Position numbers and translations under genes: made by a program. A DNA stretch of 64,000 nucleotides from Sphingobium yanoikuyae (GTDB lineage Bacteria; Pseudomonadota; Alphaproteobacteria; Sphingomonadales; Sphingomonadaceae), in NCBI RefSeq assembly GCF_013001025.1, contig NZ_CP053021.1:1426001-1490000 (forward strand), given 5' to 3'. Below, piece by piece: positions 22,388-45,952 of the stretch. The notes under the pieces are model-generated. The model saw only the letters and a list, made by a program, of their open reading frames with translations. It was not told the origin of the DNA and ran no database searches. The stretch's first letter is position 1. The number at the start of each line of letters is the position of its first letter.

Positions 22388-24034
22388 TCATGGTAGCGTA
22401 GAGGCCTCCGCATTCTCGATCGTCATGATGCCCGGTGGCATGCCGCGCTCGGCCTTCTGCCGGGCGACCATGGCGCGGATTTCCGCGCGCAACGCCTTTG
22501 CATCATAGATGATGCCGTCCTTGATCGTGTAATCGACGCCGCCGACCCGATCGACCTTGCCGGTCGCATCATTGAGCCTGATCGATCCGGTGCCGAACAG
22601 CAATTTCATGTTGGCCAGCGGGTTGCCCTTGATGACCACCAGGTCGGCCTTGCGGCCGACCCGGATGGTGCCGATCTGGTCCTCATGGCCGAGCAGCCGG
22701 GCGCCTTCCTGCGTCGCGGCGTGGATCACCTCCAGCGGGCTGAACCCCGCCTCGCGCAGCAATTCCATCTCCTGGATATAGCCGAAGCCATAGAGATTGT
22801 AGATATAGCCGCTATCGCTGCCCACGGTGACGCGGCCGCCACGGTTCTTGTAGTCGTTCACGAACCGCATCCAGCGGCGATAATTGTCCTTCCACGCCAT
22901 TTCATGCTCGGTGGTCCAGTCGAACCAATAGGCGCCATGATTGGTGCGGCTCGGGCGATAATAGTCCCACAGCGCCGGCATGGTGTAATCGGCATGCCAT
23001 TGCGCCCGGCTCATCCGCATGAAGTCCCGGCTGGTGAGATAGGCGGTGAAGGTCGGGTCCAGGGTGAAGCCGCGTTCCAGCAGCGTGTCCATCACCTTGT
23101 TCCACTGGTCCGATCCCGGCTCGGCCGCCTGCGCCCACAGCCGCCCGGCCTCGCCGAAGCGCATCTGCTCGTCATTGTTGATGAACTCGGTGGGAAAGGC
23201 CTGGATGCGCTGGTCGGTGAACATCGCTTCGGGCAGGCCATACCAATGTTCCATGCTTTCCAGGCCCGCGCCCGACGTGCCCAGCACATTGGCATAGGCG
23301 ACCAGTTGCTGGGCATGGTGCATGGTGCTGTGCAGGCCGAGCTTCTTCGTCTCGTCGAGCGCGGCATAGAGCACATCCTCCGGCGCGCCGCCGATGAACT
23401 TGATGCCGTCGGCGCCGCGCTTCTTGGCTTCCTGGATCACCGCGCGGGCGGTGGCGGCGTCGTTCACCGGGCCGCGTATCTGGTGGAACATCGGATAGAT
23501 GTCGATGCGCGGGGCGACGATCTCGTTGCGGGCACTGCGGGCCTTGATCTCGGCCAGCCATTCGATCGGATGGCCGCTGCCCAGGTCGCGGACGGAGGTG
23601 ATGCCATGCGCCATCCAGAGCTTGAGAATATAGTCGGACGGCACTTTCTGCGCGTCGCTCAGCGAATGAAGATGGACATGGGCATCGACGAAGCCAGGCA
23701 TGACATAGGCACCGGCCAGGTCGATCTCATGGTCGCCGGGCGCGGCGCGCAGCGCGGGATTGATCGCGCCGGGCGCGCCGATCGACTTGATTTCGGCGAT
23801 GCGATCGTTCGACAGGACGATGTCGAACGGCCCCTGCGCCGGGGCGCCGGTGCCGTCGATCATATAGACATGGCGCAGCACCGTGCGCTGGAACGGCCCT
23901 ACGCCCTGGTTGCGGGCGGGAATGGGATCGGCGGTCTTTGCCGCCGGCGCATTGGATGCTTCGGGCGCCGCGAGCGCGCTGCCGCTCAGGAGCAGCGCCG
24001 CCAGGGCGAGAATGGGACGGGACCGGACGGCCAT
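22388..24034 (-). CDS. Exported metal-dependent amidohydrolase (peptidase M38-like)
   Basis: Periplasmic amidohydrolase-superfamily protein of 548 residues. A signal peptide occupies about 1-22 (ILALAALLLSGSALA). The first metal site is DAHVHLHS, preceded by GAYVMPGFV. Further ligands are probably the Lys in DGIKFIGG, the His residues in HSTMHHAQ and EHWYG, and the Asp in VGSDSGYIY. Exported relatives in sphingomonads and Caulobacter include Xaa-Pro dipeptidases and carboxypeptidases, but the substrate here cannot be read from sequence. The ATG at 24034 has GGAGAG six bases upstream. It lies 73 bases downstream of the TonB receptor on the same strand, so the two are probably co-transcribed. 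Confidence 0.8.
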   Translation of the reverse strand: MAVRSRPILALAALLLSGSALAAPEASNAPAAKTADPIPARNQGVGPFQRTVLRHVYMIDGTGAPAQGPFDIVLSNDRIAEIKSIGAPGAINPALRAAPGDHEIDLAGAYVMPGFVDAHVHLHSLSDAQKVPSDYILKLWMAHGITSVRDLGSGHPIEWLAEIKARSARNEIVAPRIDIYPMFHQIRGPVNDAATARAVIQEAKKRGADGIKFIGGAPEDVLYAALDETKKLGLHSTMHHAQQLVAYANVLGTSGAGLESMEHWYGLPEAMFTDQRIQAFPTEFINNDEQMRFGEAGRLWAQAAEPGSDQWNKVMDTLLERGFTLDPTFTAYLTSRDFMRMSRAQWHADYTMPALWDYYRPSRTNHGAYWFDWTTEHEMAWKDNYRRWMRFVNDYKNRGGRVTVGSDSGYIYNLYGFGYIQEMELLREAGFSPLEVIHAATQEGARLLGHEDQIGTIRVGRKADLVVIKGNPLANMKLLFGTGSIRLNDATGKVDRVGGVDYTIKDGIIYDAKALRAEIRAMVARQKAERGMPPGIMTIENAEASTLP

Positions 24035-24064
24035 GCGACGCTCTCCTCTATAGCTGTTGTAAGT

Positions 24065-24096
24065 GGCGGGCCGGAGCGCCACGGCTCCGGCCCGCC
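24065..24096. repeat. Perfect 13-base hairpin between receptor and amidohydrolase genes
   Basis: Stem GGCGGGCCGGAGC/GCTCCGGCCCGCC with loop GCCACG, just 3' of the TonB receptor stop on the minus strand. There is no T run. It may attenuate transcription or stabilise the receptor mRNA so that the downstream gene is expressed at a different level. Confidence 0.5.
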
Positions 24097-24107
24097 TATC
24101 GGCCGGA

Positions 24108-27026
24108 TCAGAACTTCATTCGTGCGCCCACGAAGTAGCGGCGACCCAGCGTGTCATAGAGCGACACGTCGGTATTGGCGTCGCCGACCAGCGTCGTGCC
24201 TAGGATCGGCGGCTGCCGGTCGAGCAGATTGTTGACGCCGCCGAAGAAGGAGAAGGTCTCCGTCGCGTCGATCGAGAAGCTGGTGTCGAGATACCAGACC
24301 GGGTCCACCGACTTCACCACATTGGTGGCGGTCGGATAGAGCTTCAGGTCGCCGATCATCCGGCCCTGCAGGCGGAAGCTCAGCGGGCCGCTGGCATAGG
24401 TGGCGCCCAGGTTTAGCTTGAAGTCCGGGGTGATGAAGCCGCCGGTGCCGACTGAGCAGCCCGCGCCATAATAGCCGGCGCAATCCTGCGGGGCGGAGGT
24501 GGCGAGCACCTGCGTCGTGCGCTCGAACAGCCAGCTGGCGATCGCCTGCAACGACAGGCTGGCATCGTCACCCAGCGACAGCGCACCGGGCAGCGGCACG
24601 CGATAATCGACCTGCGCGTCGATGCCGTTGACCTTGAGCGAGCCGATATTGTTGCTCGACACGCTGACATAGTCGAGCTGGCCATTGCCCAGGCGCGTGA
24701 TCGCCCGGCAGGTGGCGCTGCCCGCATCCATCATCGTGTAGCAGTCGTTCATCGTCTGCTGCGCGTTGACGGTCATGATCGCGTCGTCGACCTTCACGTT
24801 GAAATAGTCGACCGTGATGTTGAGGCGCGGGATGAAGGGCGGCGAGATGACGGCACCGATCGTGTAGGTCTTCGACTTTTCCTCGCGCAGGTTCGGGTTG
24901 CCGCCGCTGTCCTGGTTGAGGCCGAGCGTCGCCTGGGTGAAGTTGGCGATTTCGCCCGCCGGCACGCCGGTGGCGACGCAGAAATTCTTGAGCGCGTCGC
25001 TGCGATTGTCGCCGCCCGAGGTCGGGATGGCGCAGGGATCGGTGCCGCTGGAATAGCCGCGGGTCACCGCCGTATAGAGTTCGGCGATATTGGGCGCGCG
25101 GATCGCGCTGTTATAGGCGCCACGGATGCGGATCCAACTGACCGGGGCATATTCGCCGCCCAGCTTCCAGGTGAAGACCTTGCCGACCGAGCTGTAATCC
25201 GAATAGCGGGCCGCACCCTCGATCGCGAGCGTGTCGAAGAAGGGCATGTCGGCCAGGATCGGGATGCGCAGTTCGCCGAACAGTTCCTTGACGTCATAGG
25301 CACCGGCCAGCGCCTTTTGCGACACCGCGCCATATTCATTGGCCAGGTCGAGCGGGCTGGGGCTGAACGTATATTTGTCCTTGCGATATTCGGCGCCCAG
25401 CGCGACCGAAACCGGGCCGGCCGGCAGTTCGAACAGGGTGCCGGCGATGCTGGCGCCCGCGACCTGGCGGGTGAAGATGTCATGGCTTTCACGCACCGGA
25501 GTCAGGAAGGCGCCGGCTTCCGGGCTGATCGAATTGAGGCCCAGGATCGACACGGGGACGCAGCCCAGCGACTGGTTGCGGCAGACGACATTGCCCGAGG
25601 AATCGATGACCGCGTCCAGACCCATCGACAGGCGGGTTTGCGAGATCAGACCCTCGTTGCGGGTGTCGGTGCGGTTGCGCATATATTGGTAGAAGGCGTC
25701 CCACTTCCAGTCGCTGCCCAGCAGCGACACATCACCGCGCAGGCCGGTGGTGATCTGGTAGGATTGCCGTTCGTAGCGATAGTTGCGGGTGCCCAGTTCG
25801 TCCGCGCGGCGGCCGCCGCCGACGATTTCCGCCGTGCCGTCGCCATTGGTGTCGAAGATGGCGGCATTGTTGGTGAAGAACTGGCGCAGGCTTTCGGGCA
25901 GCACCGGGTTGCTGGCATAATTGGGGATCAGCAATGTCGAGGAGGCGGCGCCGGGCGTCAGCGGGGTGAAGCTGTCGGGCGCCAGGATCATGTCATTTTT
26001 GGCGTTGACGAAATAGGCCTCGGCATAGGCGGTGATCTTGTCGGCCACCTCATAATGGGCGTTGGCGGCGACGTTGAAGCGATCGAGCGGGCGCTGCAGC
26101 AGATTATAGGGCGCGTAGTTGTAGGTGTCCTCCGGCTGGCAATAGGGCAGGACGGTGCCGTTCTCGCCAAAACGAATGCCGGTGACCGACGTGCAACTGC
26201 CGCCGGGGGTCAGGTTGACGCCGGTCAGCGCTGCACGCTGCGCGGCGCTCAGCGGGACGCGCGTGCCGGGGATGCTGCCCGACCCCGAATAGACCAGCTG
26301 GCCGTTGACTTCGCCCAGCGGCGTGCGGCTGAAACCACGATCATTCTGGGTGATCGACGACTGGCGGGTCCAGCTGCCCGACAGAGTGATATTGCCCCGG
26401 CCATCGGCGGTGCTGGTGCCAAAGGTCAGGTCGAGCTTCTTCGATTCGGCGTCGCCGCGATCAGAAATGCCATATTGGGCGCTGGCTTCGACGCCCTCGA
26501 ACTTGTCGTCGAGGATGAAGTTGACCGCGCCGGCGATCGCATCGGAGCCATAGACGGCCGACGCGCCGCCGGTGATGATCTCGACGCGCTTGATCAGGGC
26601 GTCGGGAATGGAGGCAAGGTCGACATTGCCGTTGGAATCGGCGGGGATGAAGCGGCGGCCATTGACCAGCACCAGCGTGCGGGTGTTGCCCAGGCCGCGC
26701 AGATTGGCGGTCAGCACGCCCGACCCGCCGCCATTATTGACGGTGGAGGTGTTGCCCGACGCCAGCTGCGGCATCTCGTTCAGGGTCTTTTCCAGCGTGA
26801 CGTTGCCCGACAGCTTCACATCCTCGCTGCCCATGACCGAAATCGGGCTGGGCGCGGTCAGATCGGTGCGGACCAGGCGCGACCCGGTGACGACGATGTC
26901 GGTGGAGGGCTGGGCCGCCTCCTGGGCCTGGGCGGTGGAACCCAAGCCGCCGCCGGCTAGGATGGTCGACAGCAACAGAAAGGCATTGCGGCGGCCGTAC
27001 AGGCCCGCCGGTCGGATCGTCATCAT
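24108..27026 (-). CDS. TonB-dependent outer-membrane receptor
   Basis: Receptor of 972 residues importing a bulky substrate across the outer membrane with TonB energy. A signal peptide ends near residue 34 (STAQAQ). The plug domain (about 40-170) contains DIVVTGSRL, LRGLGNTRTLVLVNGRRF and RVEIITGGASAVYGSDAIAGAVNFIL. The rest is the 22-strand barrel, with NPNLREEKSKTYTIG and a terminal aromatic Phe (VGARMKF). The STDIVVTGSR start of the mature protein may be the TonB box region. It is divergent from an exported amidohydrolase across a promoter with a GTATACGAT site, and upstream of another. This suggests that it imports peptide-like or glycopeptide material. The substrate is inferred only from neighbours. 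Confidence 0.92.
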   Translation of the reverse strand: MMTIRPAGLYGRRNAFLLLSTILAGGGLGSTAQAQEAAQPSTDIVVTGSRLVRTDLTAPSPISVMGSEDVKLSGNVTLEKTLNEMPQLASGNTSTVNNGGGSGVLTANLRGLGNTRTLVLVNGRRFIPADSNGNVDLASIPDALIKRVEIITGGASAVYGSDAIAGAVNFILDDKFEGVEASAQYGISDRGDAESKKLDLTFGTSTADGRGNITLSGSWTRQSSITQNDRGFSRTPLGEVNGQLVYSGSGSIPGTRVPLSAAQRAALTGVNLTPGGSCTSVTGIRFGENGTVLPYCQPEDTYNYAPYNLLQRPLDRFNVAANAHYEVADKITAYAEAYFVNAKNDMILAPDSFTPLTPGAASSTLLIPNYASNPVLPESLRQFFTNNAAIFDTNGDGTAEIVGGGRRADELGTRNYRYERQSYQITTGLRGDVSLLGSDWKWDAFYQYMRNRTDTRNEGLISQTRLSMGLDAVIDSSGNVVCRNQSLGCVPVSILGLNSISPEAGAFLTPVRESHDIFTRQVAGASIAGTLFELPAGPVSVALGAEYRKDKYTFSPSPLDLANEYGAVSQKALAGAYDVKELFGELRIPILADMPFFDTLAIEGAARYSDYSSVGKVFTWKLGGEYAPVSWIRIRGAYNSAIRAPNIAELYTAVTRGYSSGTDPCAIPTSGGDNRSDALKNFCVATGVPAGEIANFTQATLGLNQDSGGNPNLREEKSKTYTIGAVISPPFIPRLNITVDYFNVKVDDAIMTVNAQQTMNDCYTMMDAGSATCRAITRLGNGQLDYVSVSSNNIGSLKVNGIDAQVDYRVPLPGALSLGDDASLSLQAIASWLFERTTQVLATSAPQDCAGYYGAGCSVGTGGFITPDFKLNLGATYASGPLSFRLQGRMIGDLKLYPTATNVVKSVDPVWYLDTSFSIDATETFSFFGGVNNLLDRQPPILGTTLVGDANTDVSLYDTLGRRYFVGARMKF

Positions 27027-27320
27027 TGGTCTATCCCCTTGTAATCGCTAGGATTCAATTCATTCGACACAGATTATGATTTTGCATGCGCAGCAATGTG
27101 GGATGCTGCGCCGATGTCGGCTCCTGCGTACCGGACCGCCTGACGGTCCCCCGGACGGGTGTTCAGCTCCTCTCTCTGTCTTTGCAGCTCTTTGACCGCT
27201 TCAATGTATATGGAATATCGTATACTTTAATCATGCTAAGGCTGCAGGAGGCTGTCAAGATTGCAGTTAAATGTCAGTCCGCAGTCGCCGGCTAAAAGCG
27301 TCGAACGGGGAGTTAGTGTA
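27027..27320. promoter_or_regulatory. Divergent promoter region between TonB receptor and amidohydrolase
   Basis: Non-coding gap of 294 bases. The right half is AT-rich and holds the GTATACGAT operator (minus strand, 27217-27225), which overlaps a TATACT resembling a -10 element. I see no small gene in it. Confidence 0.55.
27217..27225 (-). promoter_or_regulatory. GTATACGAT operator copy 1
   Basis: Exact GTATACGAT on the minus strand, in the gap between the TonB receptor and the exported amidohydrolase. The core GTATAC fits the GT-N2-AC symmetry of GntR-family operators. Four further exact copies lie in promoters downstream. Confidence 0.65.
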
Positions 27321-28910
27321 ATGAAAATAAATAGAAAAATTGTTCGTTCCCTGCTGCTGCCTGGAGCGGCTCTGGGGCTGTTCCGGCCCGAGATTGTTGC
27401 AGCTGAAACAATATGGATACGCGACGTAACCGTCATCGACGGCACCGGGGCTGCGCCGAAGGCAGGGCAGGACGTGCTCATCGCCGATGGGAAGGTCGCA
27501 GCGGTCGGCACAAAGCTGAAGGCGCCGGCCTCGGCGCGGCAGGTCGACGGCCGCGGGCGCTATCTGCTGCCCGGCTTCATCGACTCCAATGTTCATGCGA
27601 CCGTCTATGGCAATCCGGCGCGCCGCGACACCTCATCGCGTTATGCCGACCGGAACGAGGAACTGGCGCTCGAATTTGCCCAGCGCCAGTTGCGCGCGGG
27701 CGTCACCACCATGCGCGACAGCTATGGCGTGCTGCCGCCGCTGCTGGCGGTGCGCGACCGGATCGCCAGCGGCCAGGCGATCGGCGCGCGCATGCTGGTG
27801 GCGGGCAATATATTGGGCTGGGGTGGGCCATTTTCGCTGACCTATTCGCTGACCGGCGATCGCGACCTGACCCTGTTTCAGGAACAGTGGAACGACATGC
27901 TGGCCCAGGGCATGGGCGAGGAACTGATGGACATGACGCCGGAACAATTGCGGGCCGCCGTCAGCGCCTATCTCGATCGGGGCGTCGATTTCCTCAAATA
28001 TGGCGGCACCAGCCATTTCATGATGCCCTCGCTGATCGGCTTTTCGCCGCGCCAGCAGGCGGTGATCGTGGCGGAGGCGCACAAGCGCGGCAAGATGGCC
28101 GAAACCCATGCCACCAGTTCGGAAGGGCTGCGCCTGGCGGTCGAGGCGGGGATCGACCTGATCCAGCATCCCGAGATATTGAGCCGCGACTATCCCGACG
28201 ATCTGATCGCGCTGATCCTGTCAAAGGGGACGCTGTGCGCGATGCGGTCCAACATGGTCACCGGCGCGGTACGACAGAAGCAGATCGCAAGGCGCGCCAG
28301 GGCGGTGGCGGACATTGCGCAGATGCCGCCGGCGCTGACCAGCACCGAACTGCGTCGCCGGGCGGCGATGCGCGGCGACGATGCGGAGATCGAGCGGCGC
28401 AATGCCGAGCGGCTGGTCGCGGCCGGATGCCCCGTCACGATCGCGACCGACAATTATCTGGGTGATGCGCCCGAATTTCGCCGCGGCCCCAAATCGCCGG
28501 AGCAGGAGCCAGGCGAGGGGAGCCTGCTGGCGATCGAAGGGCTGGTGGAACTGGGCATGACGCCGATGCAGGCGATTGTCGCGGCAACCCGCAACGGCGC
28601 GCAGGCAGCCGGGCGGCTCCAGGATCTGGGCACGGTGGAGCCGGGCAAGATCGCCGACCTGCTGCTGCTGGACGCCGATCCGCTGGCCGACATCCATAAT
28701 ATCCGCCGCCTCGGCCGGCTGTTCGTCGCGGGCAAGGAGGTCGATTTGCAGGCCCTGCCGCAGACGCACCTGTTCGTGGTGGATCAGCCAATGCCCAGAG
28801 GGCGTTGCCTGCCGTCTGCAAGCGGGCAACGCCGGATGTCCGTTCCTCCCCTGCAAGGGGAGGGGGACCGGCGAAGCCGGTGGAGGGGTGTTCCGCTATC
28901 GAACGGGTGA
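27321..28910 (+). CDS. Exported amidohydrolase-family protein with unusual metal motif and tail
   Basis: Protein of 529 residues with an N-terminal signal peptide (about 1-28). The amidohydrolase fold is clear: LLPGFIDSNVHATVYG, then the candidate carboxylated Lys in VDFLKYGGTSH, His in AETHATS, His in LIQHPEIL, Asp in IATDNYLGD, and the C-terminal GTVEPGKIADLLLLDADPL. The first metal motif reads Asn-Val-His instead of His-x-His. The ATG at 27321 follows GGGAG at about nine bases. The last 40 or so residues are encoded by inverted repeats that look intergenic, so the original stop may have been lost. It is probably periplasmic and acts on peptides or N-acyl compounds; the substrate is unknown. 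Confidence 0.78.
   Translation: MKINRKIVRSLLLPGAALGLFRPEIVAAETIWIRDVTVIDGTGAAPKAGQDVLIADGKVAAVGTKLKAPASARQVDGRGRYLLPGFIDSNVHATVYGNPARRDTSSRYADRNEELALEFAQRQLRAGVTTMRDSYGVLPPLLAVRDRIASGQAIGARMLVAGNILGWGGPFSLTYSLTGDRDLTLFQEQWNDMLAQGMGEELMDMTPEQLRAAVSAYLDRGVDFLKYGGTSHFMMPSLIGFSPRQQAVIVAEAHKRGKMAETHATSSEGLRLAVEAGIDLIQHPEILSRDYPDDLIALILSKGTLCAMRSNMVTGAVRQKQIARRARAVADIAQMPPALTSTELRRRAAMRGDDAEIERRNAERLVAAGCPVTIATDNYLGDAPEFRRGPKSPEQEPGEGSLLAIEGLVELGMTPMQAIVAATRNGAQAAGRLQDLGTVEPGKIADLLLLDADPLADIHNIRRLGRLFVAGKEVDLQALPQTHLFVVDQPMPRGRCLPSASGQRRMSVPPLQGEGDRRSRWRGVPLSNG
28801..28890. repeat. Palindromic repeat cluster read through by the amidohydrolase gene
   Basis: There are three consecutive hairpins: GGCGTTGCC/GGCAACGCC (28801-28833), CCTCCCCT/AGGGGAGG (28845-28863), and ACCGGC/GCCGGT (28867-28881) followed by GGAGGGGT. 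The last two together resemble the composite intergenic palindromes widespread in alphaproteobacterial genomes. They sit inside the 3' end of the reading frame. Confidence 0.65.
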
Positions 28911-28921
28911 CGCCCCTCGAT

Positions 28922-28970: not shown

Positions 28971-28974
28971 CCGC

Positions 28975-30531
28975 CTATTCCGTCGCGCTGTCGTAGAAGG
29001 CCAGCAAGTCGCGGCGCAGGCCCTTCATGGACTCCGGGTGGATGTAGATCATGTGCCCGGATTCATAATAGCGATAGCTGATATCGGCCTGCAGCGCCTT
29101 GTCGAGCTGCATATGCTTCAGGTCATATTCGGCGCCGGCAAAGGGCGTCGCCATGTCATAATAGCCGTTGAGCGACAGCACTTTCAGATGGCTGTTGGTG
29201 CGCATCGCGCGGGCCAGGTCCAGCGCGGTGTCGGCCGCCGGCATCGGCCGGCCGCCGCCGCCCGGCGCGCGATGGCGCTGGTCCCAGGCCGGGCTGATCT
29301 CCTTGTAGAAATTCGGGCGGTAGCTGAGCGGCGTCTTGTAGCCGAGCGTGCCGAACAGATAGGAATTGAGCGCCGCGATATAGGCGCCGCTGATCGAGGT
29401 GTCGGCCGCGTCAAATTCGGGATCGGCGGCGCTGTCGTCGACATCGATGCCGACGAAGCGGGAATCCAGCCGTCCGACGGTGCGGCTGCTGTCGCGCATC
29501 AGCTCCTTGCGGAACCGGCCGAGATCGACGCGCAGCTTGTTCTGCAGGATGAAGCCCTTGGACAGGCCGGTATAGGCGGCTAACTGGGTCGCGATCGCAT
29601 CGCGCTCGCCATCGGGCAGGTCGTCGCCCTTGGCCAGTGCGGACAGATAGGGGCCCAGGGCAAAGGCGCGCACTTCGCTCAGGAACGGCTCCAGCGTCGC
29701 CGGTCGGTTGGGCAGGCGGTTATGATACCAGGCGGTGGCGGCATAGCTGGGCAGATAGGTGACGTTGATCTGGTCATAGCCCGGATTGCGGATGCCATAG
29801 TTCAGGATCGACGACAGCAGCACCACGCCGTTCATCTGCACGCCGCGTTCCTGCAGCGTGTTGACCAGGCCCGCCGCTCGCAGCGTGCCATAGCTTTCGC
29901 CGAGCAGGAATTTGGGCGCATTCCAGCGATTGTTGATCGTCAGATAGCGCTGGATGGCGCTGGCAAAGGCGTCGATGTCCGGATCGACGCCCCAGAAATC
30001 CTTGCCCTGTGCCTTGCCGAGCGGACGCGACAGGCCGGTGCCGATCGCGTCGATGAAGACCAGGTCGCTGCGGTCGATCAGGCTGTCGGGATTGGGGCCG
30101 ATGGCGAAGGGGGCGGGGCGAGCGGTGTCGGGCGTCGGCGTATCCACCCGGACGGGGCCAAAGGAGCCGATGTGCAGCCACATGGTCGACGAACCCGGAC
30201 CGCCGTTGAACAGGAAGGTGACGGGGCGTTCCTTCGCGCCCTTGGCCCGATCGGCGACATAGGCGGTGTAGAACATGCTCGCGATTGGTTCGCCGGCATC
30301 GTTGCGGATCGTCAGCGTGCCGGGCGTGGCGGTATAGTGGATCAGCTTGCCGGCGACCGTCACCGACGCGCGGCTGGGCATCGCCTGTTCCTCGACCGGG
30401 GCGACGGCGCTATCGTCCTTCTTGGCCTCTTCCTTCTCCGCCGGGGCAGGCTTGTCGGCGGCGATCGACGGCGCAGCCAGTGCCGTCAGCAGCAGGGGAA
30501 GGGCGGAATATGCGATGTTTTTCGGGATCAT
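28975..30531 (-). CDS. Exported serine carboxypeptidase, S10 family
   Basis: Periplasmic peptidase of 518 residues that should remove C-terminal residues from peptides. A signal peptide spans about 1-24 and a charged KPAPAEKEEAKKDD linker follows. The S10 oxyanion-hole motif FLFNGGPGSSTMW comes next. The catalytic triad is Ser at about 212 in GESYG, Asp at about 457 in NGYYDMATP, and His at about 492 in ESGHMIY. Length suits the bacterial S10 group. It is divergent from an alpha/beta hydrolase gene across a GTATACGAT site, consistent with membership of the hydroxyproline/peptide regulon. Confidence 0.9.
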   Translation of the reverse strand: MIPKNIAYSALPLLLTALAAPSIAADKPAPAEKEEAKKDDSAVAPVEEQAMPSRASVTVAGKLIHYTATPGTLTIRNDAGEPIASMFYTAYVADRAKGAKERPVTFLFNGGPGSSTMWLHIGSFGPVRVDTPTPDTARPAPFAIGPNPDSLIDRSDLVFIDAIGTGLSRPLGKAQGKDFWGVDPDIDAFASAIQRYLTINNRWNAPKFLLGESYGTLRAAGLVNTLQERGVQMNGVVLLSSILNYGIRNPGYDQINVTYLPSYAATAWYHNRLPNRPATLEPFLSEVRAFALGPYLSALAKGDDLPDGERDAIATQLAAYTGLSKGFILQNKLRVDLGRFRKELMRDSSRTVGRLDSRFVGIDVDDSAADPEFDAADTSISGAYIAALNSYLFGTLGYKTPLSYRPNFYKEISPAWDQRHRAPGGGGRPMPAADTALDLARAMRTNSHLKVLSLNGYYDMATPFAGAEYDLKHMQLDKALQADISYRYYESGHMIYIHPESMKGLRRDLLAFYDSATE

Positions 30532-38156: not shown

Positions 38157-38165
38157 GTATACGAT
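38157..38165 (+). promoter_or_regulatory. GTATACGAT operator copy 4
   Basis: Exact copy inside the fuller sequence ATACCGTATACGATAT, between the divergent GH127 and Pyr2C-reductase-like genes and placed to control both. Confidence 0.7.
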
Positions 38166-38201
38166 ATTGCGATTATGGTTCGGGATCAAGACGGAGGATG
38201 C

Positions 38202-38243
38202 ATGTCTATCTTCAACGCCGCGGCATGGGCAATAAAGGGATGA
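38202..38243 (+). CDS. Possible 13-residue leader peptide
   Basis: A short frame encoding MSIFNAAAWAIKG begins with an ATG four bases after GGAGG, the only strong ribosome site here. It ends at a TGA overlapping the ATG of the Ldh-family gene (ATGA). It may serve to couple translation. Alternatively the downstream protein uses an in-frame ATG at 38198, directly against the GGAGG, which is poorly spaced. Confidence 0.4.
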   Translation: MSIFNAAAWAIKG

Positions 38244-39266: not shown

Positions 39267-39271
39267 CGATT

Positions 39272-40474
39272 TCAGGCGAACGGCTGGTCGATCGCGACCG
39301 AGGGCGGGGTGAACCAGGCGGCCCCGGTTTCGGTCACGTAAAAATGATCCTCCAGCCGCACGCCGAAGCGATCCGGCACGACGATCATCGGTTCGTTGGA
39401 AAAGCACATGCCCGGTTCCAGCGGGGTCATGTCGCCGCGCACCAGATAGGGTGCCTCATGGATCGACAGGCCGATGCCATGGCCGGTGCGATGGGGCAGG
39501 CCGGGCAGGCGATAGTCGGGGCCAAGGCCCGCCGCCTCCAGCACGCGCCGCGCCGCCGCGTCGATCGCGCCACAGGGGATGCCGGGCTTGACTGCATCGA
39601 ATGCGGCCTGCTGCGCTTCCTTCTCCAGCGCCCAGATGCGCCGTTGCTCGGCATCCGCCTCGCCATAGACATAGGATCGGGTGATGTCGCTATGATAGCC
39701 GCCGATGGTGCAGCCGGTATCGATCAGCACCATGTCGCCTTCGGCCAGCACGCTCTCGCCCGGCAGGCCGTGGGGATAGGCAGTCGATCGGCCGAACTGG
39801 ACGATGCAGAAGCTGCTGCCCGATGCGCCGAGCGCCCTGTGCGCGGCCTCGATGAAGTGACGCACCTCGGTCGCGGTGATGCCGGGGCGCAGGATGCGGG
39901 CGGCGCGGCGATGCACCTCCAGCGTCATCGACTTGGCCTGCTGCATCAGCGCCAGTTCGGCGGCCGACTTGCGGCTGCGGCAACCGTCGATCACGGCCGA
40001 GGCGGCAACCAGCGTCACGTCCGGCGCGGCAGCGCGAATGCGCTCGACGAACAGGAAGGCCATGGCCGGGTCGATCCCCAGCCGGGCGACGCCCAGCGTC
40101 TTGAGCGCATCGGCGACCAGGGCGGACGGGCTTTCATCCTCTTCCCACAGGCGCAGGTCGCCGGCGTCGATCTTGAGGTCTGCTTCCAGCGATCCGCGCT
40201 CGAAGCGCGGGCAGATCAGGATCGGATCGCCGTTGAGCGGCAGCAGCATCGCCACCAGTCGCTCGCTCGCTCCCCAAGGAACGCCAGCGAAATAGGCAAG
40301 GCTGGTTCCGGCGTCGATCAGCAGCGCGTCGAGCCCTTCCTGCGCCATCAAGGCGCGGGCCTTGGCGATGCGTGCCTGATATTCGGACGCCGTGATGGCC
40401 GGCGCGCGATCGGGCCAGGGCTGAAGTCCGGCCAGTTCGGTGGCGGCGTCGGAGCCGCCAATCTGTTGTGTCAT
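39272..40474 (-). CDS. M24 family Xaa-Pro peptidase
   Basis: Cytoplasmic pita-bread metallopeptidase of 400 residues cleaving before or after proline (Xaa-Pro dipeptidase/aminopeptidase type). All five dinuclear metal ligands are present: Asp252 (LIDTGC), Asp263 (HSDITR), His332 (GHGIGL), Glu361 (SNEPM) and Glu375 (RLEDHF). The N-terminal creatinase-like domain covers about 28-165. There is no signal peptide. It ends at the palindrome shared with the reductase gene and starts three bases after the D-hydroxyproline dehydrogenase stop, so the two form an operon. It would release Pro or Hyp from imported dipeptides. Confidence 0.9.
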   Translation of the reverse strand: MTQQIGGSDAATELAGLQPWPDRAPAITASEYQARIAKARALMAQEGLDALLIDAGTSLAYFAGVPWGASERLVAMLLPLNGDPILICPRFERGSLEADLKIDAGDLRLWEEDESPSALVADALKTLGVARLGIDPAMAFLFVERIRAAAPDVTLVAASAVIDGCRSRKSAAELALMQQAKSMTLEVHRRAARILRPGITATEVRHFIEAAHRALGASGSSFCIVQFGRSTAYPHGLPGESVLAEGDMVLIDTGCTIGGYHSDITRSYVYGEADAEQRRIWALEKEAQQAAFDAVKPGIPCGAIDAAARRVLEAAGLGPDYRLPGLPHRTGHGIGLSIHEAPYLVRGDMTPLEPGMCFSNEPMIVVPDRFGVRLEDHFYVTETGAAWFTPPSVAIDQPFA

Positions 40475-40477
40475 ACT

Positions 40478-41743
40478 CTATCCTTCAAAGCGGCGGAGCG
40501 AAAAGGGCGTGGCATCGACCGGCGGCGGTGCGCCGGTGGCTAGCGCGGCGATGATTTCTCCGGTCAGCGGTCCCAATGTCAGCCCCAGATGCTGGTGGCC
40601 GAACGCATAGAGCAGGTTGTCTGCCCGGTCACTCCGGCCGATCGCGGGCAGATAGTCGGGCAGGGTCGGGCGGGCGCCGATCCAGGGCCTGGCATCCGCC
40701 TCGATCGGCAGGCCCAGCGCGGCGGCGTGGGCGCGCAGCCGCTGCCATTTGCGCGGGTCGGGCGGGGAAGAGAGGCTGGAAAATTCGACGAAGCTCGCCG
40801 CGCGGAGCCCACTCTCGAACCGGGTGACGATCATCGATCGATCCTCGAACACCACCGGCGGCATATCCATCGGCCAGCCTTCGGGCGCGGTTGGCGTCTG
40901 CAGATGATAGCCGCGTTCGGCGATGATCGGCACCTTGTGGCCCATCGGGCGCAGCAGCGCGTCCGATGCTGCGCCGGTCGCGACGATGATATGGTCCGCG
41001 TCCAGCGTCCGGCCGTCGGCCAGTTGAACCTGTGCCTGTCCCCCATGGGTGGGAAGCGCGCTAACCTCCACCTGTTCGATCCGCCCGCCTGCCGCCAGCA
41101 GCGCATCCCTCAGATCCTGGGCCAGCCGGGTCGGGTCGGCAATGCGGCCACTTCCCTCGCAGCGAATCGCGCCGATGATCGGATGGGGGAACAGAGCTTC
41201 GAGCAGGGCAAGCTCACGCGCCGTCGCGTCGCGGAATCGCGCCGTGCCGCAATCGGCGGCCATCCAGGCGCGGCGCCCGGCCAGCGCGCTTGCCTCGCTT
41301 TCCCAGGCGATGAAATGCCCATCCTCGATCAGGCGGCTCTGGCCCGCGCACAACGCGTCGATCCGCTGCCAGGCCGGTATTGCTTCTTTCAACATTGCCT
41401 TTAACGCGGCGCGTCCTGCCGCAAAGCGCGATGGGCGCGCGGCATTCAACAGGCGCAGTGAGAAGGGTAGCCAGCGGCCGATGTCGCGCCAGGGCAGGCC
41501 GAGCGCGCCCCCGCGCCAGAACAGTCGCCGGGGAAAGCTGCATACCGTCGCCATCGACGCGAGCGGGTCGATCTGCTCCACCGCGACATGGCCGGCATTG
41601 CCCCAGGATGCGCCGCGCAGCGGGTTTTCCCGTTCGATCAGCAGCGTTGAAATTCCCTTTTCCTGCAATCGGATAGCGCAGGATATTCCGACGATGCCGC
41701 CGCCGATGATGATTGCGTGTTGGGTCAATTGACTTCTTTTCAC
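40478..41743 (-). CDS. FAD-dependent D-amino-acid (D-hydroxyproline) dehydrogenase
   Basis: DadA/DAO-type flavoprotein of 421 residues. The FAD-binding motif AIIIGGGIVGISCAIRL starts near residue 10, IIVATGA lies in the middle, and the end carries LLYAFGHQHLGLTLGPLTGEIIA. Next to a hydroxyproline epimerase and deaminase it most likely oxidises cis-4-hydroxy-D-proline to delta1-pyrroline-4-hydroxy-2-carboxylate, like single-chain HypO. The start is uncertain. The GTG at 41743 has no ribosome site, whereas a TTG at 41728 is preceded by AGAAG and would begin just before the FAD motif. It is divergent from the deaminase gene across a GTATACGAT site. Confidence 0.82.
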   Translation of the reverse strand: MKRSQLTQHAIIIGGGIVGISCAIRLQEKGISTLLIERENPLRGASWGNAGHVAVEQIDPLASMATVCSFPRRLFWRGGALGLPWRDIGRWLPFSLRLLNAARPSRFAAGRAALKAMLKEAIPAWQRIDALCAGQSRLIEDGHFIAWESEASALAGRRAWMAADCGTARFRDATARELALLEALFPHPIIGAIRCEGSGRIADPTRLAQDLRDALLAAGGRIEQVEVSALPTHGGQAQVQLADGRTLDADHIIVATGAASDALLRPMGHKVPIIAERGYHLQTPTAPEGWPMDMPPVVFEDRSMIVTRFESGLRAASFVEFSSLSSPPDPRKWQRLRAHAAALGLPIEADARPWIGARPTLPDYLPAIGRSDRADNLLYAFGHQHLGLTLGPLTGEIIAALATGAPPPVDATPFSLRRFEG

Positions 41744-41765
41744 TTGGCGATGACGATTAGATACC

Positions 41766-41774
41766 GTATACGAT
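41766..41774 (+). promoter_or_regulatory. GTATACGAT operator copy 5
   Basis: Exact copy in ATACCGTATACGAT, 24 bases upstream of the deaminase GTG and equally close to the divergent dehydrogenase start. It is identical over 14 bases to copy 4. Confidence 0.7.
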
Positions 41775-41797
41775 CCTTAGTTTCAACGGAGGCTTAT

Positions 41798-42712
41798 GTG
41801 AATTCCTCAAAATTGACGTGGCGTGGTGTCTACCCTGCCGCCACCACCCAGTTCACCCCTGATCTGGACGTTGATATCCCCGCAACCCAGGCTGTCCTGG
41901 ATGCGCTGGTTAAGGATGGCGTCGACGGCCTCATCATCGCTGGCACCTGCGGTGAGAACAACTCGCTGGAAGCCGAAGAAAAGCGCGCTGTCGTCCAGGC
42001 GGCGGTCGAGGTCGTGGATGGCCGCGTGCCGATCCTGGTCGGCGTGTCCGAATTCACCACTCGCCGCGCGGTAACCTTCGCGCAGGACGCCGAAAAGCTG
42101 GGCGTCGATGGGCTGATGCTGCTGCCCGCCATGGTCTATGTGCCAACCGTGGGTGAGCTTTGCACCCATTTCGAAACGGTGGCCAAGGCGACGTCGCTGC
42201 CGATCATGCTCTACAATAACCCGCCGGCCTATCGGGTGAATATCGGCATCGACGCGCTCACCCGCCTCGCCGACACGCCCAACATCGTCGCGGTCAAGGA
42301 AAGCGCGCCCGATCCGCGTCGCTTCACCGACCTGATCAACGCCTTCGGCGACCGCTATATCCTGATGGCGGGCCTGGACGATGTCGCGTTCGAGGGCCTG
42401 TTGCTGGGCGCGCATGGCTGGATTTCCGGCCTCACCAGCGCCTTCCCGCGCGAATCCGTGGCGCTGGTCGCGGCGATCAACCGGGGCGATCTGGAAGAAG
42501 CCCTGCGCATCTATCGCTGGTTCATGCCGCTGCTGCACCTCGATGCCGATCATGATCTGGTCCAGTCGATCAAGCTGGCCGAAAGCATCATGGGACGCGG
42601 CACCGAGCATGTCCGCCTGCCGCGCATGCCGCTGGAAGGCCAGCGCCGCGCCGACGTCATCCGCTGGGTCGAGCAGTGCGCTGCCACCCAGCCCAGCCTG
42701 ACGGCGGCCTGA
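41798..42712 (+). CDS. lhpC: DapA-family delta1-pyrroline-4-hydroxy-2-carboxylate deaminase
   Basis: Class I aldolase-fold enzyme of 304 residues. The Schiff-base Lys lies in NIVAVKESAPDP and the substrate loop is AGTCGENNSLEAEEKR. The Tyr motif reads PIMLYNNPPAY. In hydroxyproline catabolism the DapA homologue deaminates and opens the cyclic imine to alpha-ketoglutarate semialdehyde. That role is assigned because the gene is directly followed by the epimerase and is divergent from the dehydrogenase. The start is GTG with GGAGG five bases upstream; the ATG two bases earlier is out of frame and meets an immediate stop. It overlaps the epimerase gene by one base (TGATG). Confidence 0.87.
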   Translation: MNSSKLTWRGVYPAATTQFTPDLDVDIPATQAVLDALVKDGVDGLIIAGTCGENNSLEAEEKRAVVQAAVEVVDGRVPILVGVSEFTTRRAVTFAQDAEKLGVDGLMLLPAMVYVPTVGELCTHFETVAKATSLPIMLYNNPPAYRVNIGIDALTRLADTPNIVAVKESAPDPRRFTDLINAFGDRYILMAGLDDVAFEGLLLGAHGWISGLTSAFPRESVALVAAINRGDLEEALRIYRWFMPLLHLDADHDLVQSIKLAESIMGRGTEHVRLPRMPLEGQRRADVIRWVEQCAATQPSLTAA

Positions 42713-43719
42713 TGTCCGCGGTGCGCCACACCTTCTTCTGCATAGACGGCCATACGGCGGGCAATCCCGTCCGTCTGGTCGCGGGCGGCGCGCCGCTGCT
42801 CAAGGGAAAGTCCATGGCGGAACGCCGCCTGGACTTTCTCGACCGCTTCGACTGGATCCGCACCAGTCTCTGCTTCGAGCCGCGCGGCCATGACATGATG
42901 TCGGGCGGCTTCCTCTATCCGCCGACGCGCGATGATACCGACATCGGCATCCTCTTCATCGAGACCAGCGGTTGCCTGCCGATGTGCGGCCATGGCACGA
43001 TCGGCATGGTGACGTTCGGCCTGGAAAATGGCCTGATCCAGCCGGCGACGCCGGGCAGGCTGCGGGTCGAAGTGCCAGCCGGCATCATCGACATCGATTA
43101 TACGAGCGACGGCAAGCGCGTGACATCGGTCAAGATCCGCAACGTCCCCGCCTATCTGGCGGCGGAGGGCATCGCAATCGACGTGCCGGGCTTCGGCCCG
43201 CTCAGCGTCGATGTCTCCTATGGCGGCAATTACTACGCGATCGTCGAACCGCAGGGCGCCTATACCGGCCTCGACGATCTCGGCGCATCGCGCATCGTGG
43301 AACTCAGCCGCACGATCCGCGAACTGGTGCGCGAACAATATCAGCCGGTCCATCCGCTCGAACCCAGCATCAAGGGGGTGAGCCATGTCCTGTGGGCCGA
43401 CAAGCCCAAGGGCGAGGGGGCCGATGGCCGCAACGCCGTCTTCTATGGCGAGCGGGCGATCGACCGCAGCCCCTGCGGCACCGGCACGTCGGCGCGGCTG
43501 GCGCATCTGGCGGCCAAGGGCAAGCTGAAGGTCGGCGACCGGTTCGTGCATGAAAGCTATATCTGTAGTCGCTTCATCGGCCGGGTCGAGGCCGAGACGA
43601 TGATCGGCGACCAGAAGGCGATCATTCCCTCGATCGAGGGATCGGCAATTGCCACCGGCTTCAACACTATCTGGGTTGATCGCGAAGACCCCTTCTGGGC
43701 CGGCTTCACGGTCGTATGA
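42712..43719 (+). CDS. lhpA: 4-hydroxyproline 2-epimerase (proline racemase family)
   Basis: Cytoplasmic cofactor-independent epimerase of 335 residues converting trans-4-hydroxy-L-proline to cis-4-hydroxy-D-proline, the entry step of the pathway. Catalytic Cys92 lies in MCGHGTIG and Cys255 in SPCGTGTSAR, so both acid-base cysteines are present. This separates it from the Cys/Thr trans-3-hydroxyproline dehydratases of the same family. The N-terminal IDGHTAGNPVRLV is also typical. Start and stop context shows coupling to the deaminase upstream; the GntR regulator follows 85 bases downstream. Confidence 0.93.
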   Translation: MSAVRHTFFCIDGHTAGNPVRLVAGGAPLLKGKSMAERRLDFLDRFDWIRTSLCFEPRGHDMMSGGFLYPPTRDDTDIGILFIETSGCLPMCGHGTIGMVTFGLENGLIQPATPGRLRVEVPAGIIDIDYTSDGKRVTSVKIRNVPAYLAAEGIAIDVPGFGPLSVDVSYGGNYYAIVEPQGAYTGLDDLGASRIVELSRTIRELVREQYQPVHPLEPSIKGVSHVLWADKPKGEGADGRNAVFYGERAIDRSPCGTGTSARLAHLAAKGKLKVGDRFVHESYICSRFIGRVEAETMIGDQKAIIPSIEGSAIATGFNTIWVDREDPFWAGFTVV

Positions 43720-43757
43720 AATCGAAGGCGCAGAGCGGATGGACGGGATCGTCCATC

Positions 43758-43766
43758 ATATACGAA
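43758..43766 (+). promoter_or_regulatory. Degenerate operator copy upstream of the GntR gene
   Basis: ATATACGAA differs from GTATACGAT at two positions and lies about 40 bases upstream of the GntR start, within ATCATATACGAAGTTGTAT. It is a plausible weak autoregulatory site. Confidence 0.4.
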
Positions 43767-43804
43767 GTTGTATTCCGCCGTCCGCTCTGTGCTATGTTCG
43801 CTGC

Positions 43805-44455
43805 ATGAGCCTAGTCATCCGAAACCTGTCCGACCAGCTGGTCGATCTTGTCCGTGAGCGTATCCTGTCCGGCCGGGTGCCGCCCGACGGGCCGATCCGC
43901 CAGGACGCGCTGGCCGCCGAACTGGGGATCAGCAAGATTCCGCTGCGCGAGGCACTGGCTCGACTGGAGCAGGAAGGGCTGCTCAAGTCGCAGGCCAATC
44001 GCGGTTTCTTCGTGCGCAGCCTCAATCGGGTGGAGGCAGACGAAGTCTATGCGCTGCGCCTGAAGCTGGAGCCCGATGTGATGGCGTTGGCCGCCGAACG
44101 GGCGGACGAGGCGGAGCATCAGGCGGCGATCAACACGCTGGCCACCCTCTATCAGGTCACCGACGAAGGTGGCGACGGGGTGGGGGCGTTCAACCGCGCC
44201 TTCCACATGGCGTTGCTGCGTCCCAGCAGCCAGCCGCTGTCGGTCAATATTCTCGAACGGCTCCATATCCTGTCGGAACGCTATGTCCGCAAGCATCTGG
44301 AGCCGCTTGGCCGCGACGAACGCGCCAATGACGAACATCGTGAGATGCTCGATGCCTGGCTCGCCCGCGACGGCCAACTGATCCGCGAACTCACGGTCGC
44401 ACATATCCGCAAAACCATGGACGATCTCATGGTTCAGCTCGACGCCGACGACTGA
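43805..44455 (+). CDS. GntR-family (FCD domain) regulator of hydroxyproline genes
   Basis: Transcription factor of 216 residues. It has an N-terminal winged helix (about 8-72: LVDLVRERILSGRVPPDGPIRQDALAAELGISKIPLREALARLEQEGLL) and an all-helical FCD ligand domain (about 80-205) with EADEVYALRLKLEP, FHMALL and EHREMLDAW. Regulators of this class control amino-acid and hydroxy-acid catabolism and bind short palindromes with a GT-N-AC core. It follows the epimerase gene and is the obvious candidate to bind the GTATACGAT sites. The inducer may be hydroxyproline or a pathway imine. Confidence 0.88.
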   Translation: MSLVIRNLSDQLVDLVRERILSGRVPPDGPIRQDALAAELGISKIPLREALARLEQEGLLKSQANRGFFVRSLNRVEADEVYALRLKLEPDVMALAAERADEAEHQAAINTLATLYQVTDEGGDGVGAFNRAFHMALLRPSSQPLSVNILERLHILSERYVRKHLEPLGRDERANDEHREMLDAWLARDGQLIRELTVAHIRKTMDDLMVQLDADD

Positions 44456-44506
44456 GCCATAACCGAGCAACCGGAACGTCCATAAGAACAGGGAAGGAAA
44501 TTTCGG

Positions 44507-45952
44507 TTGAGCACTGGATTTTGGGGACCGATCAAGCCGATCGGCGCCAGTCATCACGCGCAGCATCAGCAATTGCGCAAGACATTGTCCTGGCCGCATC
44601 TGATCGCGCTGGGGGTCGGGGCGATTGTTGGCACCGGCATCTATACGCTGACCGGCGTGGGGGCCGACCGGGCGGGGCCGGCGGTGATCCTGGCCTTCGC
44701 CATTGCAGGGGCCGTGTGCGCCTGCGCGGCGCTGGCCTATGCCGAACTGGCCACGCTGATCCCGACCGCAGGCAGCGCCTATACCTACACCTATTCGGTG
44801 CTGGGGGAGACGCTGGCCTGGGTCGTGGGCTGGAGCCTGATCCTGGAATATTCGCTGGCGTGCAGCACGGTGGCGGTCGGCTGGTCGGGCTATCTGGTCG
44901 GCTGGATCCAGCAGGCGGGGATCAGCCTGCCGCCGATGCTGCTGGCCGGGCCGCATGGCGGCGGCATCGTCAACCTGCCCGCCGTGCTGGTGGCGCTGGC
45001 GATCGCCGGCATGCTGATCGCGGGCACGCGGGAAAGTGCGACGCTCAACATCATTCTGGTCGTCATCAAGCTGACCGCGCTCGCCGCCTTCGTCGCACTG
45101 GCGCTGCCTGCCTTCCAGTCCGACCATCTCCAGCCCTTCATGCCCTATGGCTTCGTCAGCCATGTGGAAGGTGGCATGACGCGCGGCGTGATGGCGGCAG
45201 CGGCGATCGTCTTCTTCGCCTTCTACGGTTTCGATGCGGTGGCGACCTCGGCCGAGGAAGCGCGGAATCCTGGCCGTGACCTGACCATCGGCATCGTCGG
45301 ATCGATGGCGGTCTGCACCCTCATCTATATGGCGGTCGCGGTCGCGGCGATCGGCGCGCTCGACTATCGGGCGCTGGCCGGTTCGTCCGAACCACTGGCG
45401 CTGGTGCTGCGCACGCTGGAGCATCCGGTTGCCGCCTGGCTGGTGGCGGGCGCTGCGCTGGTGGCGCTGCCCTCCGTCATCCTGGTCATGATGTATGGCC
45501 AGAGCCGCATCTTCTTCGTCATGGCGCGTGACGGGCTGCTGCCGCGTTCGCTCAGCAAGGTGTCGGAAAAGACCGGCTCGCCCGCCCGCATCACCGCGAT
45601 CACGGGCCTCTTCGTCGCGGCGGTGGCCGGCTTCTTCCGCCTCGACGAGATCGCCGAACTGGCCAATGCGGGCACGCTGATCGCCTTCATCGCGGTTGCC
45701 GGCTGCATGATGGCGCTGCGCCGCAAGGCGCCCGAGATGAAGCGCGTGTTCCGCTGTCCGCAGCCCTATCTGGTCGGCACGCTGGCGATTGTCGGCTGCA
45801 TCTATCTGCTGATCAGCCTGCCGGAAAAGACGCTGCTGCGTTTCGGCCTGTGGAACCTGGCTGGCCTGGCGCTCTATTTCGCCTATAGCCGCGGCCGCAG
45901 CCTGCTGCGCACGACCGGTTATGCGGCTAGCGAGGAAGGCTTGCCGGAATAG
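44507..45952 (+). CDS. APC-superfamily amino acid permease
   Basis: Inner-membrane transporter of 481 residues with 12 or more hydrophobic helices and the amino-acid/polyamine/organocation layout. IALGVGAIVGTGIYTLTG is the helix 1 glycine motif, and FFAFYGFDAVATSAEEARNPGRDL is the conserved helix 6-loop segment of cationic amino-acid transporter-like proteins. The start is a TTG with AAGGA upstream; no ATG fits. It directly follows the GntR gene, so hydroxyproline or proline import is a plausible role, but specificity cannot be read from sequence. Confidence 0.85.
   Translation: MSTGFWGPIKPIGASHHAQHQQLRKTLSWPHLIALGVGAIVGTGIYTLTGVGADRAGPAVILAFAIAGAVCACAALAYAELATLIPTAGSAYTYTYSVLGETLAWVVGWSLILEYSLACSTVAVGWSGYLVGWIQQAGISLPPMLLAGPHGGGIVNLPAVLVALAIAGMLIAGTRESATLNIILVVIKLTALAAFVALALPAFQSDHLQPFMPYGFVSHVEGGMTRGVMAAAAIVFFAFYGFDAVATSAEEARNPGRDLTIGIVGSMAVCTLIYMAVAVAAIGALDYRALAGSSEPLALVLRTLEHPVAAWLVAGAALVALPSVILVMMYGQSRIFFVMARDGLLPRSLSKVSEKTGSPARITAITGLFVAAVAGFFRLDEIAELANAGTLIAFIAVAGCMMALRRKAPEMKRVFRCPQPYLVGTLAIVGCIYLLISLPEKTLLRFGLWNLAGLALYFAYSRGRSLLRTTGYAASEEGLPE

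Follow-up and report, generated by a model that had tools for sequence, protein, structure and literature searches.

Within a 64,000-bp window of the Sphingobium yanoikuyae genome (contig NZ_CP053021.1) lies a locus, at positions 22388-45952, in which a predicted beta-L-arabinofuranosidase, exported peptidases, a peptide transporter and enzymes for hydroxyproline catabolism are encoded side by side. The predicted glycosidase shares 98% identity with a protein cluster bearing the name Sphingobium yanoikuyae. Our computations establish its gene content, five copies within it of a rare site, ATCGTATAC, its synteny and the co-occurrence of its genes in other genomes, and the recurrence of the site in relatives; the locus is real, conserved and, judged by its sites, co-regulated. 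We consider it probable that it is a regulon for glycoproteins of plants (or algae) that carry beta-L-arabinofuranose on their hydroxyprolines. Hydroxyproline-rich glycoproteins (HRGPs) are components of the walls of plants and green algae that contain nitrogen and resist breakdown. In the portions of the published accounts cited below, known bacterial HRGP systems are described for arabinose and hydroxyproline regulons are tied to collagen; a conserved regulon joining both would point to soil and plant-associated bacteria being able to use the HRGP protein itself. An earlier note on this DNA, drawn from the letters of the window, had suggested a utilisation system for such glycoproteins, an idea that our analysis leaves largely intact with the corrections given below.

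Linkage of the glycosidase to hydroxyproline genes

We searched 199 genomes of the family Sphingomonadaceae with the glycosidase, which is GH146-like (see below), and found a homologue at E<=1e-50 in 19 of them. GH146 proteins at 56% identity or more were present in 15 of the 199 genomes, all 15 of which also encoded the 4-hydroxyproline epimerase (E<=1e-100), compared with 9 of the 184 others (Fisher's test, about 1e-16). The two genes were on the same contig and within about 12 kb of each other in 13 of these 15 genomes and on different contigs in two. Stretches of 15-20 kb around the glycosidase were then scored for five hydroxyproline markers (epimerase, deaminase, dehydrogenase, reductase and M24 peptidase). 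At least two markers lay within 20 kb in 12 of the 15 loci from other family genomes whose GH146 was at least 56% identical, whereas none of 11 loci with a homologue at 53% identity or less had two in 15-20 kb. The synteny search that the earlier note had proposed, for the glycosidase plus proline-racemase-family genes in sphingomonads, thus has a positive outcome.

The named loci, no random sample but the 80 best out of at least 592, extended the pairing to Caulobacter, Asticcacaulis, Azospirillum, Nitrospirillum, Niveispirillum and Granulicella, such that GH146 and the epimerase are found together in Sphingomonadaceae, Caulobacteraceae, Azospirillaceae and an acidobacterium. Of a larger set of 106 loci, 103 were classed by markers, with four fetched twice (L080=L035, L084=L039, L094=L045 and L115=L049); L040, L136 and L152 were left out of the classing because the open reading frame (ORF) caller had missed or masked GH146, and L040, though left out, has GH146 and four hydroxyproline markers. 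The sequences for the marker hidden Markov models (HMMs) came from the window and the first 15 loci, and the models were applied at more than 150 bits to the output of a simple ORF caller based on third-position GC, a procedure that favours close relatives. In a GH146 tree made by a quick method (99 rows including the window, once the four duplicates had been removed together with L153, a short row), all 33 rows with at least two markers fell within one clade of 62 (SH-aLRT 97) and none among the 37 others, and the marker label required 13 changes on the tree as against a mean of 27.8 when shuffled. Of 61 clade loci, 41 had a DUF885 gene near GH146, detected with an HMM of our own (>150 bits), compared with none of 37 loci outside the clade. 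Taken with the site shared among relatives, this conserved synteny and co-occurrence support the proposal that glycosidase, peptidases, peptide uptake and hydroxyproline catabolism belong to one unit.

Nearly the whole proposed route occurs in one stretch of Granulicella paludicola (L103:422-20982), which encodes an epimerase, DAO and DapA proteins, an aldehyde dehydrogenase (ALDH), a GH127-like protein, GH146, DUF885, a permease, GH43 and DPP-IV. Its GH146 was placed among sphingomonad sequences in the tree, which suggests transfer of this gene between phyla.

The glycosidase, the proposed route and its target

The glycosidase had been assigned to GH127, the family of HypBA1, and here a correction is needed. 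In a sequence search against solved structures its best relative was 5opj, which we take to be BT0349 (490.7 bits, over stretches 49-578 and 615-774); 8k7x, taken here as a bifidobacterial GH146, scored 176.3 bits, and GH127 proper was ruled out by scores of only 92.6 bits with the entry named GH127 (4qjy) and 48.2 bits with 3wre, presumably HypBA1. On these scores the enzyme is GH146-like and not GH127 in the narrow sense. Residues E339, E357, C359, C426 and C427 have counterparts in the alignment with 5opj and do not vary among 15 aligned sequences (that of the window included); we assume E339 to be the acid/base glutamate, and the other four constitute, by alignment, a Cys3-Glu zinc site. 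Such a site is common to clan GH-P, GH127 and GH146 (PMC10850190). The cited portion of the same report names BT0349 as the founder of GH146, acting on arabinan-derived oligosaccharides, and two further GH146 enzymes, XeHypBA1 and Bll4HypBA1, as cleaving arabinofuranose (Araf) from hydroxyproline (Hyp) in Araf-beta1-Hyp (PMC10850190). Because GH146 thus has published enzymes that cleave Araf-beta-Hyp, the predicted activity of our glycosidase on this linkage becomes more plausible despite the wrong family name.

Among the enzymes of hydroxyproline breakdown, the 4-hydroxyproline epimerase, which carries both cysteine motifs (CGHG and SPCGTG), is on sequence grounds the firmest gene call of the locus. 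The DAO-family dehydrogenase scored 121 bits with the D-amino acid dehydrogenase model, below the cut-off of 383, and the DHDPS-type enzyme, whose gene stands before that of the epimerase, matched no equivalog above cut-off; their superfamilies and neighbouring genes make them candidates for a D-Hyp dehydrogenase and a Pyr4H2C deaminase. The adjacency of genes for an Xaa-Pro peptidase and a hydroxyproline epimerase, dehydrogenase and deaminase was rightly noticed earlier, as M24 and NF010578 matches and DAO and DHDPS candidates. Family matches and signal-like N-termini, judged by eye, likewise agree with the exported peptidases, TonB receptor and POT transporter that had been named as an outer membrane-to-cytosol route. 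These genes are present as named; the last enzyme of hydroxyproline breakdown, alpha-ketoglutaric semialdehyde dehydrogenase, is absent from the genes of the locus.

The best match in the genome to an ALDH borne by a relative's locus was found at G000:C1:3294174 (62% identity; next best 30-31%). It exceeded the cut-off of no NCBIfam dehydrogenase model, and its surroundings (a 20-kb stretch) contain no GTATAC, the core of the site discussed below. This ALDH gene sits in an apparent operon (L194:7137-13418 = G000:C1:3292136-3298417) with genes for a sugar-acid dehydratase of IlvD/EDD type, an AraD1-family protein (501.7 bits, cut-off 340), an oxidoreductase of Gfo/Idh type and a regulator of GntR/FCD type; the best solved match of the dehydratase is a galactonate dehydratase. 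The operon looks like an oxidative pentose pathway, with the same semialdehyde end point as the hydroxyproline route, and its ALDH is the best candidate in the genome for the missing enzyme. A single dehydrogenase serving the sugar half as well as the imino-acid half would be an attractive arrangement, which we infer and do not count as a result.

We propose that glycopeptides would enter the periplasm through the TonB receptor, that the exported GH146 enzyme would remove Hyp-linked beta-Araf, and that the exported S10, DUF885 and amidohydrolase proteins would shorten the bared peptide. Di- and tripeptides and imino acids would be imported by the POT and APC transporters and Xaa-Pro and Xaa-Hyp split by the M24 peptidase, after which the epimerase, FAD dehydrogenase and DHDPS-type deaminase would take trans-4-Hyp to alpha-ketoglutaric semialdehyde, to be converted to 2-oxoglutarate by an aldehyde dehydrogenase encoded elsewhere. 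Every enzyme specificity in this scheme, the transport steps, the substrate and the pairing of regulator and site are predictions read from the sequence. On a further reading, which we rate as somewhat less likely than not, the locus would be a dedicated, horizontally spread system that mineralises whole HRGPs under a hydroxyproline-responsive GntR/FCD regulator, its L-arabinose half (by the oxidative pathway) and its hydroxyproline half sharing one semialdehyde dehydrogenase.

With regard to the target, the cited part of PMC5371791 describes extensin repeats as having alpha-galactose attached to serine, and 1-5 Araf residues in beta or alpha linkage attached to hydroxyproline. Clade loci also contain genes for DUF5695 (25/61), GH43 (18/61), DPP-IV-type S9 peptidases (18/61), a KGSADH-like ALDH (7/61) and GH27 (6/61); GH27, GH43 and GH146 would fit the Ser-alpha-galactose, alpha-Araf and beta-Araf of extensin, and DPP-IV would fit prolyl peptides. 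Extensin, the target named in the earlier note, is one candidate; arabinogalactan proteins (AGPs), lectins of the Solanaceae, signal peptides bearing arabinose or wall glycoproteins of algae are possible substrates instead, and that one of these rather than extensin is the target strikes us as unlikely, though worth serious consideration. DUF5695 (PF18951, about 920 residues; L045:5711-8479, L047:11263-13992 and L098:1255-4026 are examples) bears on this question, in that its predicted structure (mean pLDDT 72) resembles the polysaccharide lyase BACCELL_00875, which we take to be an AGP rhamnose-cap lyase, at 13-15% identity. Going by the predicted fold, AGP is a possible target in the relatives that have DUF5695, and DUF5695 itself is a candidate carbohydrate-active family. 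The DUF5695 sequence had one match in the PDB, at E 1.4, and our literature search returned nothing relevant on it; GH121 was not among the structural matches listed, where no search was aimed at GH121 and its absence proves nothing. Speaking against AGP or the other targets, no galactanase family match was found among the locus proteins of the window, and the window genome gave none to DUF5695, in a search that was silent in its control genomes as well. The window locus has no GH43, GH27 or DUF5695 gene, unlike the loci of some relatives.

A site shared by five promoter gaps

Five promoter gaps of the locus share one site, from which we predict that its genes are co-regulated. A shared divergent promoter had been claimed for the glycosidase and reductase genes, and these indeed diverge across a 73-bp gap containing TATACCGTATACGATAT; the single operator claimed with it is a shared site, as stated, in five copies rather than one. 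In the 5.94-Mb genome (4 contigs) ATCGTATAC occurs seven times, five of them within 14.6 kb (27217-41774) and all five intergenic, and the remaining two inside predicted ORFs elsewhere; the reversed pattern, used as a control, occurs six times. Its core, GTATAC, is found six times in the window, five times in gaps of the locus and once (47973) inside a TonB receptor ORF, a total about as composition predicts (~6 expected at 65.6% GC).

The 9-mer was picked after the sites in the window had been seen, which counts against the regulon and makes the relatives the real test of the site. GTATAC lies directly upstream of GH146 in 12 of the 15 close loci, three of these sites (L040, L047 and L049) falling just inside over-long ORF calls, and in none of the 11 loci with distant paralogues. 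In the larger set, 33 of 61 clade loci and 1 of 37 outside have it at GH146, no more than 300 bp upstream of the gene or within its first 60 bp, and by marker number it precedes GH146 in 26 of 36 loci with at least two markers, in 0 of 4 with one and in 12 of 63 with none. The 85 sites collected from relatives, none of which was used in choosing the 9-mer, gave the consensus ATATCGTATACGRTAT and have A/T-rich flanks; on the side that had played no part in orienting them, T, A and T are conserved at 66-74%. We suggest that a GntR/FCD repressor would act on ATATCGTATACGATAT-like sites in the five gaps and would be released by hydroxyproline or an intermediate, a pairing of protein and site predicted from the sequences.

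Nine family genomes have the epimerase and no close GH146, and the 9-mer was present in six of the seven hydroxyproline loci fetched from such genomes, so that the site is linked with hydroxyproline genes as such. This result also bears on a second explanation, namely that the locus is a general regulon for Pro/Hyp peptides (collagen included) in which a GH146 enzyme for pectic arabinan or free arabino-oligosaccharides is present incidentally. GH146-less hydroxyproline loci with both M24 and the same site do exist (L184, L185, L188 and L189), known HypR regulons contain collagenases (in the cited portions of PMC5343134 and PMC6608401), and BT0349 works on oligosaccharides of arabinan (PMC10850190, as cited above). 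We nonetheless find an incidental GH146 quite improbable, since the promoter gap of GH146 itself has the site, in the window and in relatives, the epimerase accompanies GH146 in 15 of 15 genomes, some relatives add GH27 and DPP-IV partners, and GH43 is unmatched among the locus proteins. That the sites arose by chance or belong to an unrelated regulator is very improbable, given five of seven genomic copies in 14.6 kb, the conserved flanks, the excess upstream of GH146 in the clade and the GH146-less loci, even with the post hoc choice of the 9-mer, a looser palindrome, TNGTATACNA, that is not enriched genome-wide (16 strand hits at 8 places; the reversed control gave 55 and 55), and a GntR gene of this type inside the fetched stretch of only 16 of 61 clade loci.

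Several further observations weigh against a regulon for arabinosylated glycoproteins. Three of the 15 close loci (L041, L043 and L044) lack linked markers, 29 of the 62 clade rows have at most one hydroxyproline marker in the surrounding 10 kb or so, and no marker at all is present in six loci of Duganella and one of Undibacterium. The core site is missing near GH146 in 28 of 61 clade loci and still stands upstream of it in the 12 marker-free loci counted above. The specificities of the dehydrogenase, deaminase, amidohydrolases and M24 peptidase are predicted at the level of family only, and the Ldh_2 reductase has no clear step in trans-4-hydroxyproline breakdown. Finally, a search for DUF5695 gave no match in the window genome, nor in any of the 14 control genomes, and the GH43 genes of the window genome lie outside the locus, which leaves a gap in the proposed route at the trimming of longer arabinosides.

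The locus is best regarded as a variant, directed at plant glycoproteins, of the known hydroxyproline regulons, collagenase-bearing forms of which are known. As far as the cited parts of PMC5343134 and PMC6608401 go, the HypR regulons of Sinorhizobium, Shewanella and Streptomyces resemble it in their GntR-family regulator, in the epimerase-dehydrogenase-deaminase core, in protease genes (there collagenases) upstream in the route and, in some taxa, in a TonB receptor or permease. Unlike them, the locus is of plant type rather than collagen type, having a Hyp-arabinosidase candidate together with POT, DUF885, S10 and amidohydrolase genes, and ATCGTATAC differs from the Streptomyces HypR motif. 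The HypBA1/HypBA2/HypAA systems of Bifidobacterium longum and Xanthomonas euvesicatoria (PMC10850190, PMC6085000) likewise place a GH146 enzyme at the Hyp-linked residue, and in Xanthomonas a prolyl oligopeptidase pseudogene adjoins xehypAA; the cited text of these reports mentions no hydroxyproline catabolic genes, in contrast to the locus. An in silico account of HRGP degradation in Latescibacteria (PMC4454575) also proposed a beta-L-arabinofuranosidase and peptidases for extensin, in its cited portion without a gene locus, co-regulation or hydroxyproline catabolism. The system had been called undescribed: none of the titles and abstracts searched joins a Hyp-arabinosidase with hydroxyproline catabolism, in a search that left out most subscription journals and so does not prove absence, whereas its likeness to the HypR regulons makes the locus a variant of something known. 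The regulon would provide a substrate hypothesis for DUF885, DUF5695 and the amidohydrolases and render extensin turnover testable.

Genes of the locus and its neighbours

ORFs were judged by third-position GC and by family scans (Pfam and NCBIfam/TIGR models), and the genes of the locus are those with high third-position GC and family matches.

Predicted genes and copies of the shared site in the locus, in window coordinates
Feature	Position	Strand	Family match or location
Exported amidohydrolase amhA, possible Xaa-Pro/Xaa-Hyp dipeptidase	22388..24082	-	Amidohydro_1 90 bits
TonB-dependent receptor	24108..27026	-	Plug and barrel Pfam matches
Predicted operator copy 1 (ATCGTATAC)	27217..27225	+	between TonB receptor/amhA and amhB
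Exported amidohydrolase amhB	27261..28910	+	Amidohydro_1 94 bits; listed start may be too early
Exported S10-like serine carboxypeptidase	28975..30531	-	Peptidase_S10 36.6 bits, cut-off 21.9
Predicted operator copy 2	30569..30577	+	between S10 peptidase and alpha/beta hydrolase
Alpha/beta hydrolase, signal-like N-terminus	30646..31716	+	Abhydrolase_1 55 bits
POT-family di/tripeptide:H+ symporter	31860..33362	-	PTR2 224 bits; TIGR00924 387.7 bits, cut-off 130
DUF4440 protein	33359..33892	-	33.7 bits, cut-off 25.2
Exported DUF885 protein, putative peptidase	33828..35630	-	DUF885 491 bits
Predicted operator copy 3	35688..35696	-	upstream of DUF885-DUF4440-POT
GH146-like beta-L-arabinofuranosidase, twin-arginine-like signal	35716..38124	-	GH127_cat (Pfam) 411.8 bits, middle domain, DUF6805
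Predicted operator copy 4	38157..38165	-	divergent GH146/reductase gap
Ldh_2 family reductase, DpkA-like	38198..39256	+	Ldh_2 312.6 bits
M24 Xaa-Pro-type peptidase, without obvious signal	39272..40474	-	Peptidase_M24 209 bits and Creatinase_N
DAO-family FAD dehydrogenase, candidate D-hydroxyproline dehydrogenase	40478..41743	-	DAO 178.7 bits
DHDPS-family enzyme, candidate Pyr4H2C deaminase	41717..42712	+	DHDPS 194 bits; start probably near 41798
Predicted operator copy 5	41766..41774	-	divergent DAO-M24/DapA-HypE-GntR-APC gap
4-Hydroxyproline 2-epimerase	42676..43719	+	NF010578 541.6 bits, cut-off 376
GntR/FCD regulator, candidate HypR-like	43649..44455	+	FCD 77.9 and GntR 59.4 bits; start probably near 43805
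APC amino-acid permease	44507..45952	+	AA_permease_2 191.7 bits

By eye, the N-termini of the amidohydrolases, the S10 peptidase, the alpha/beta hydrolase, the DUF885 protein and the glycosidase look exported and that of the M24 peptidase does not. An Xaa-Pro dipeptidase model with a cut-off of 500 bits gave a weak 72.6 bits with amhA, which clusters with genes from the loci of three relatives, and 135 bits with amhB, whose closest solved structures are molinate and phenylurea hydrolases, followed by Cc2672 (named L-arginine carboxypeptidase). The M24 peptidase scored 146 bits with a PepQ-like model (cut-off 630), the S10 match is partial (24-197 of 420), and a scan of the DUF885, M24 and other locus proteins for HExxH-type motifs yielded nothing useful. 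An ORF at 30586-32667 on the minus strand was dropped, having no Pfam match; the true gene there is the plus-strand alpha/beta hydrolase. The best solved relative of the Ldh_2 reductase is 1wtj, a Delta1-piperideine-2-carboxylate reductase that we take to be Pseudomonas DpkA (245 bits; next relative 119), and the role of such an enzyme in a 4-Hyp locus is unexplained. Of the 61 clade loci, 17 have a DpkA-like reductase gene close to GH146.

Relatives of the TonB receptor lie near GH146 in L038 (65%) and L043 (57%). The SusC/SusD pair of Bacteroidetes-type polysaccharide utilisation loci is not seen here, the receptor scoring 17.6 bits with TIGR04056 (cut-off 368) and no protein of the locus matching a SusD family in Pfam.

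To the left, the locus is bordered by the histidine-utilisation genes hutI, hutF and hutC, which lack ATCGTATAC and were excluded from the regulon, as were the gamma-glutamyltranspeptidase (GGT) and TonB receptor genes on the right (46005-51190), likewise without the site. The latter belong to a separate cluster (46005-56397) without ATCGTATAC, in which two GGT genes surround a second TonB receptor and are followed by a beta-propeller amidohydrolase; the right-side GGT is only 29-31% identical to GGTs within relatives' loci. In Luteimonas huabeiensis (L138) genes for DPP-IV, DUF885, a TonB receptor, an amidohydrolase, GH146 and GGT stand together, in a fetched stretch with no hydroxyproline markers. 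The marker-free Duganella loci (L089, L090, L091, L092, L095 and L104) encode close GH146 relatives, and in L090, the one examined, GH146 neighbours genes for a dicarboxylate symporter and a histidine kinase.

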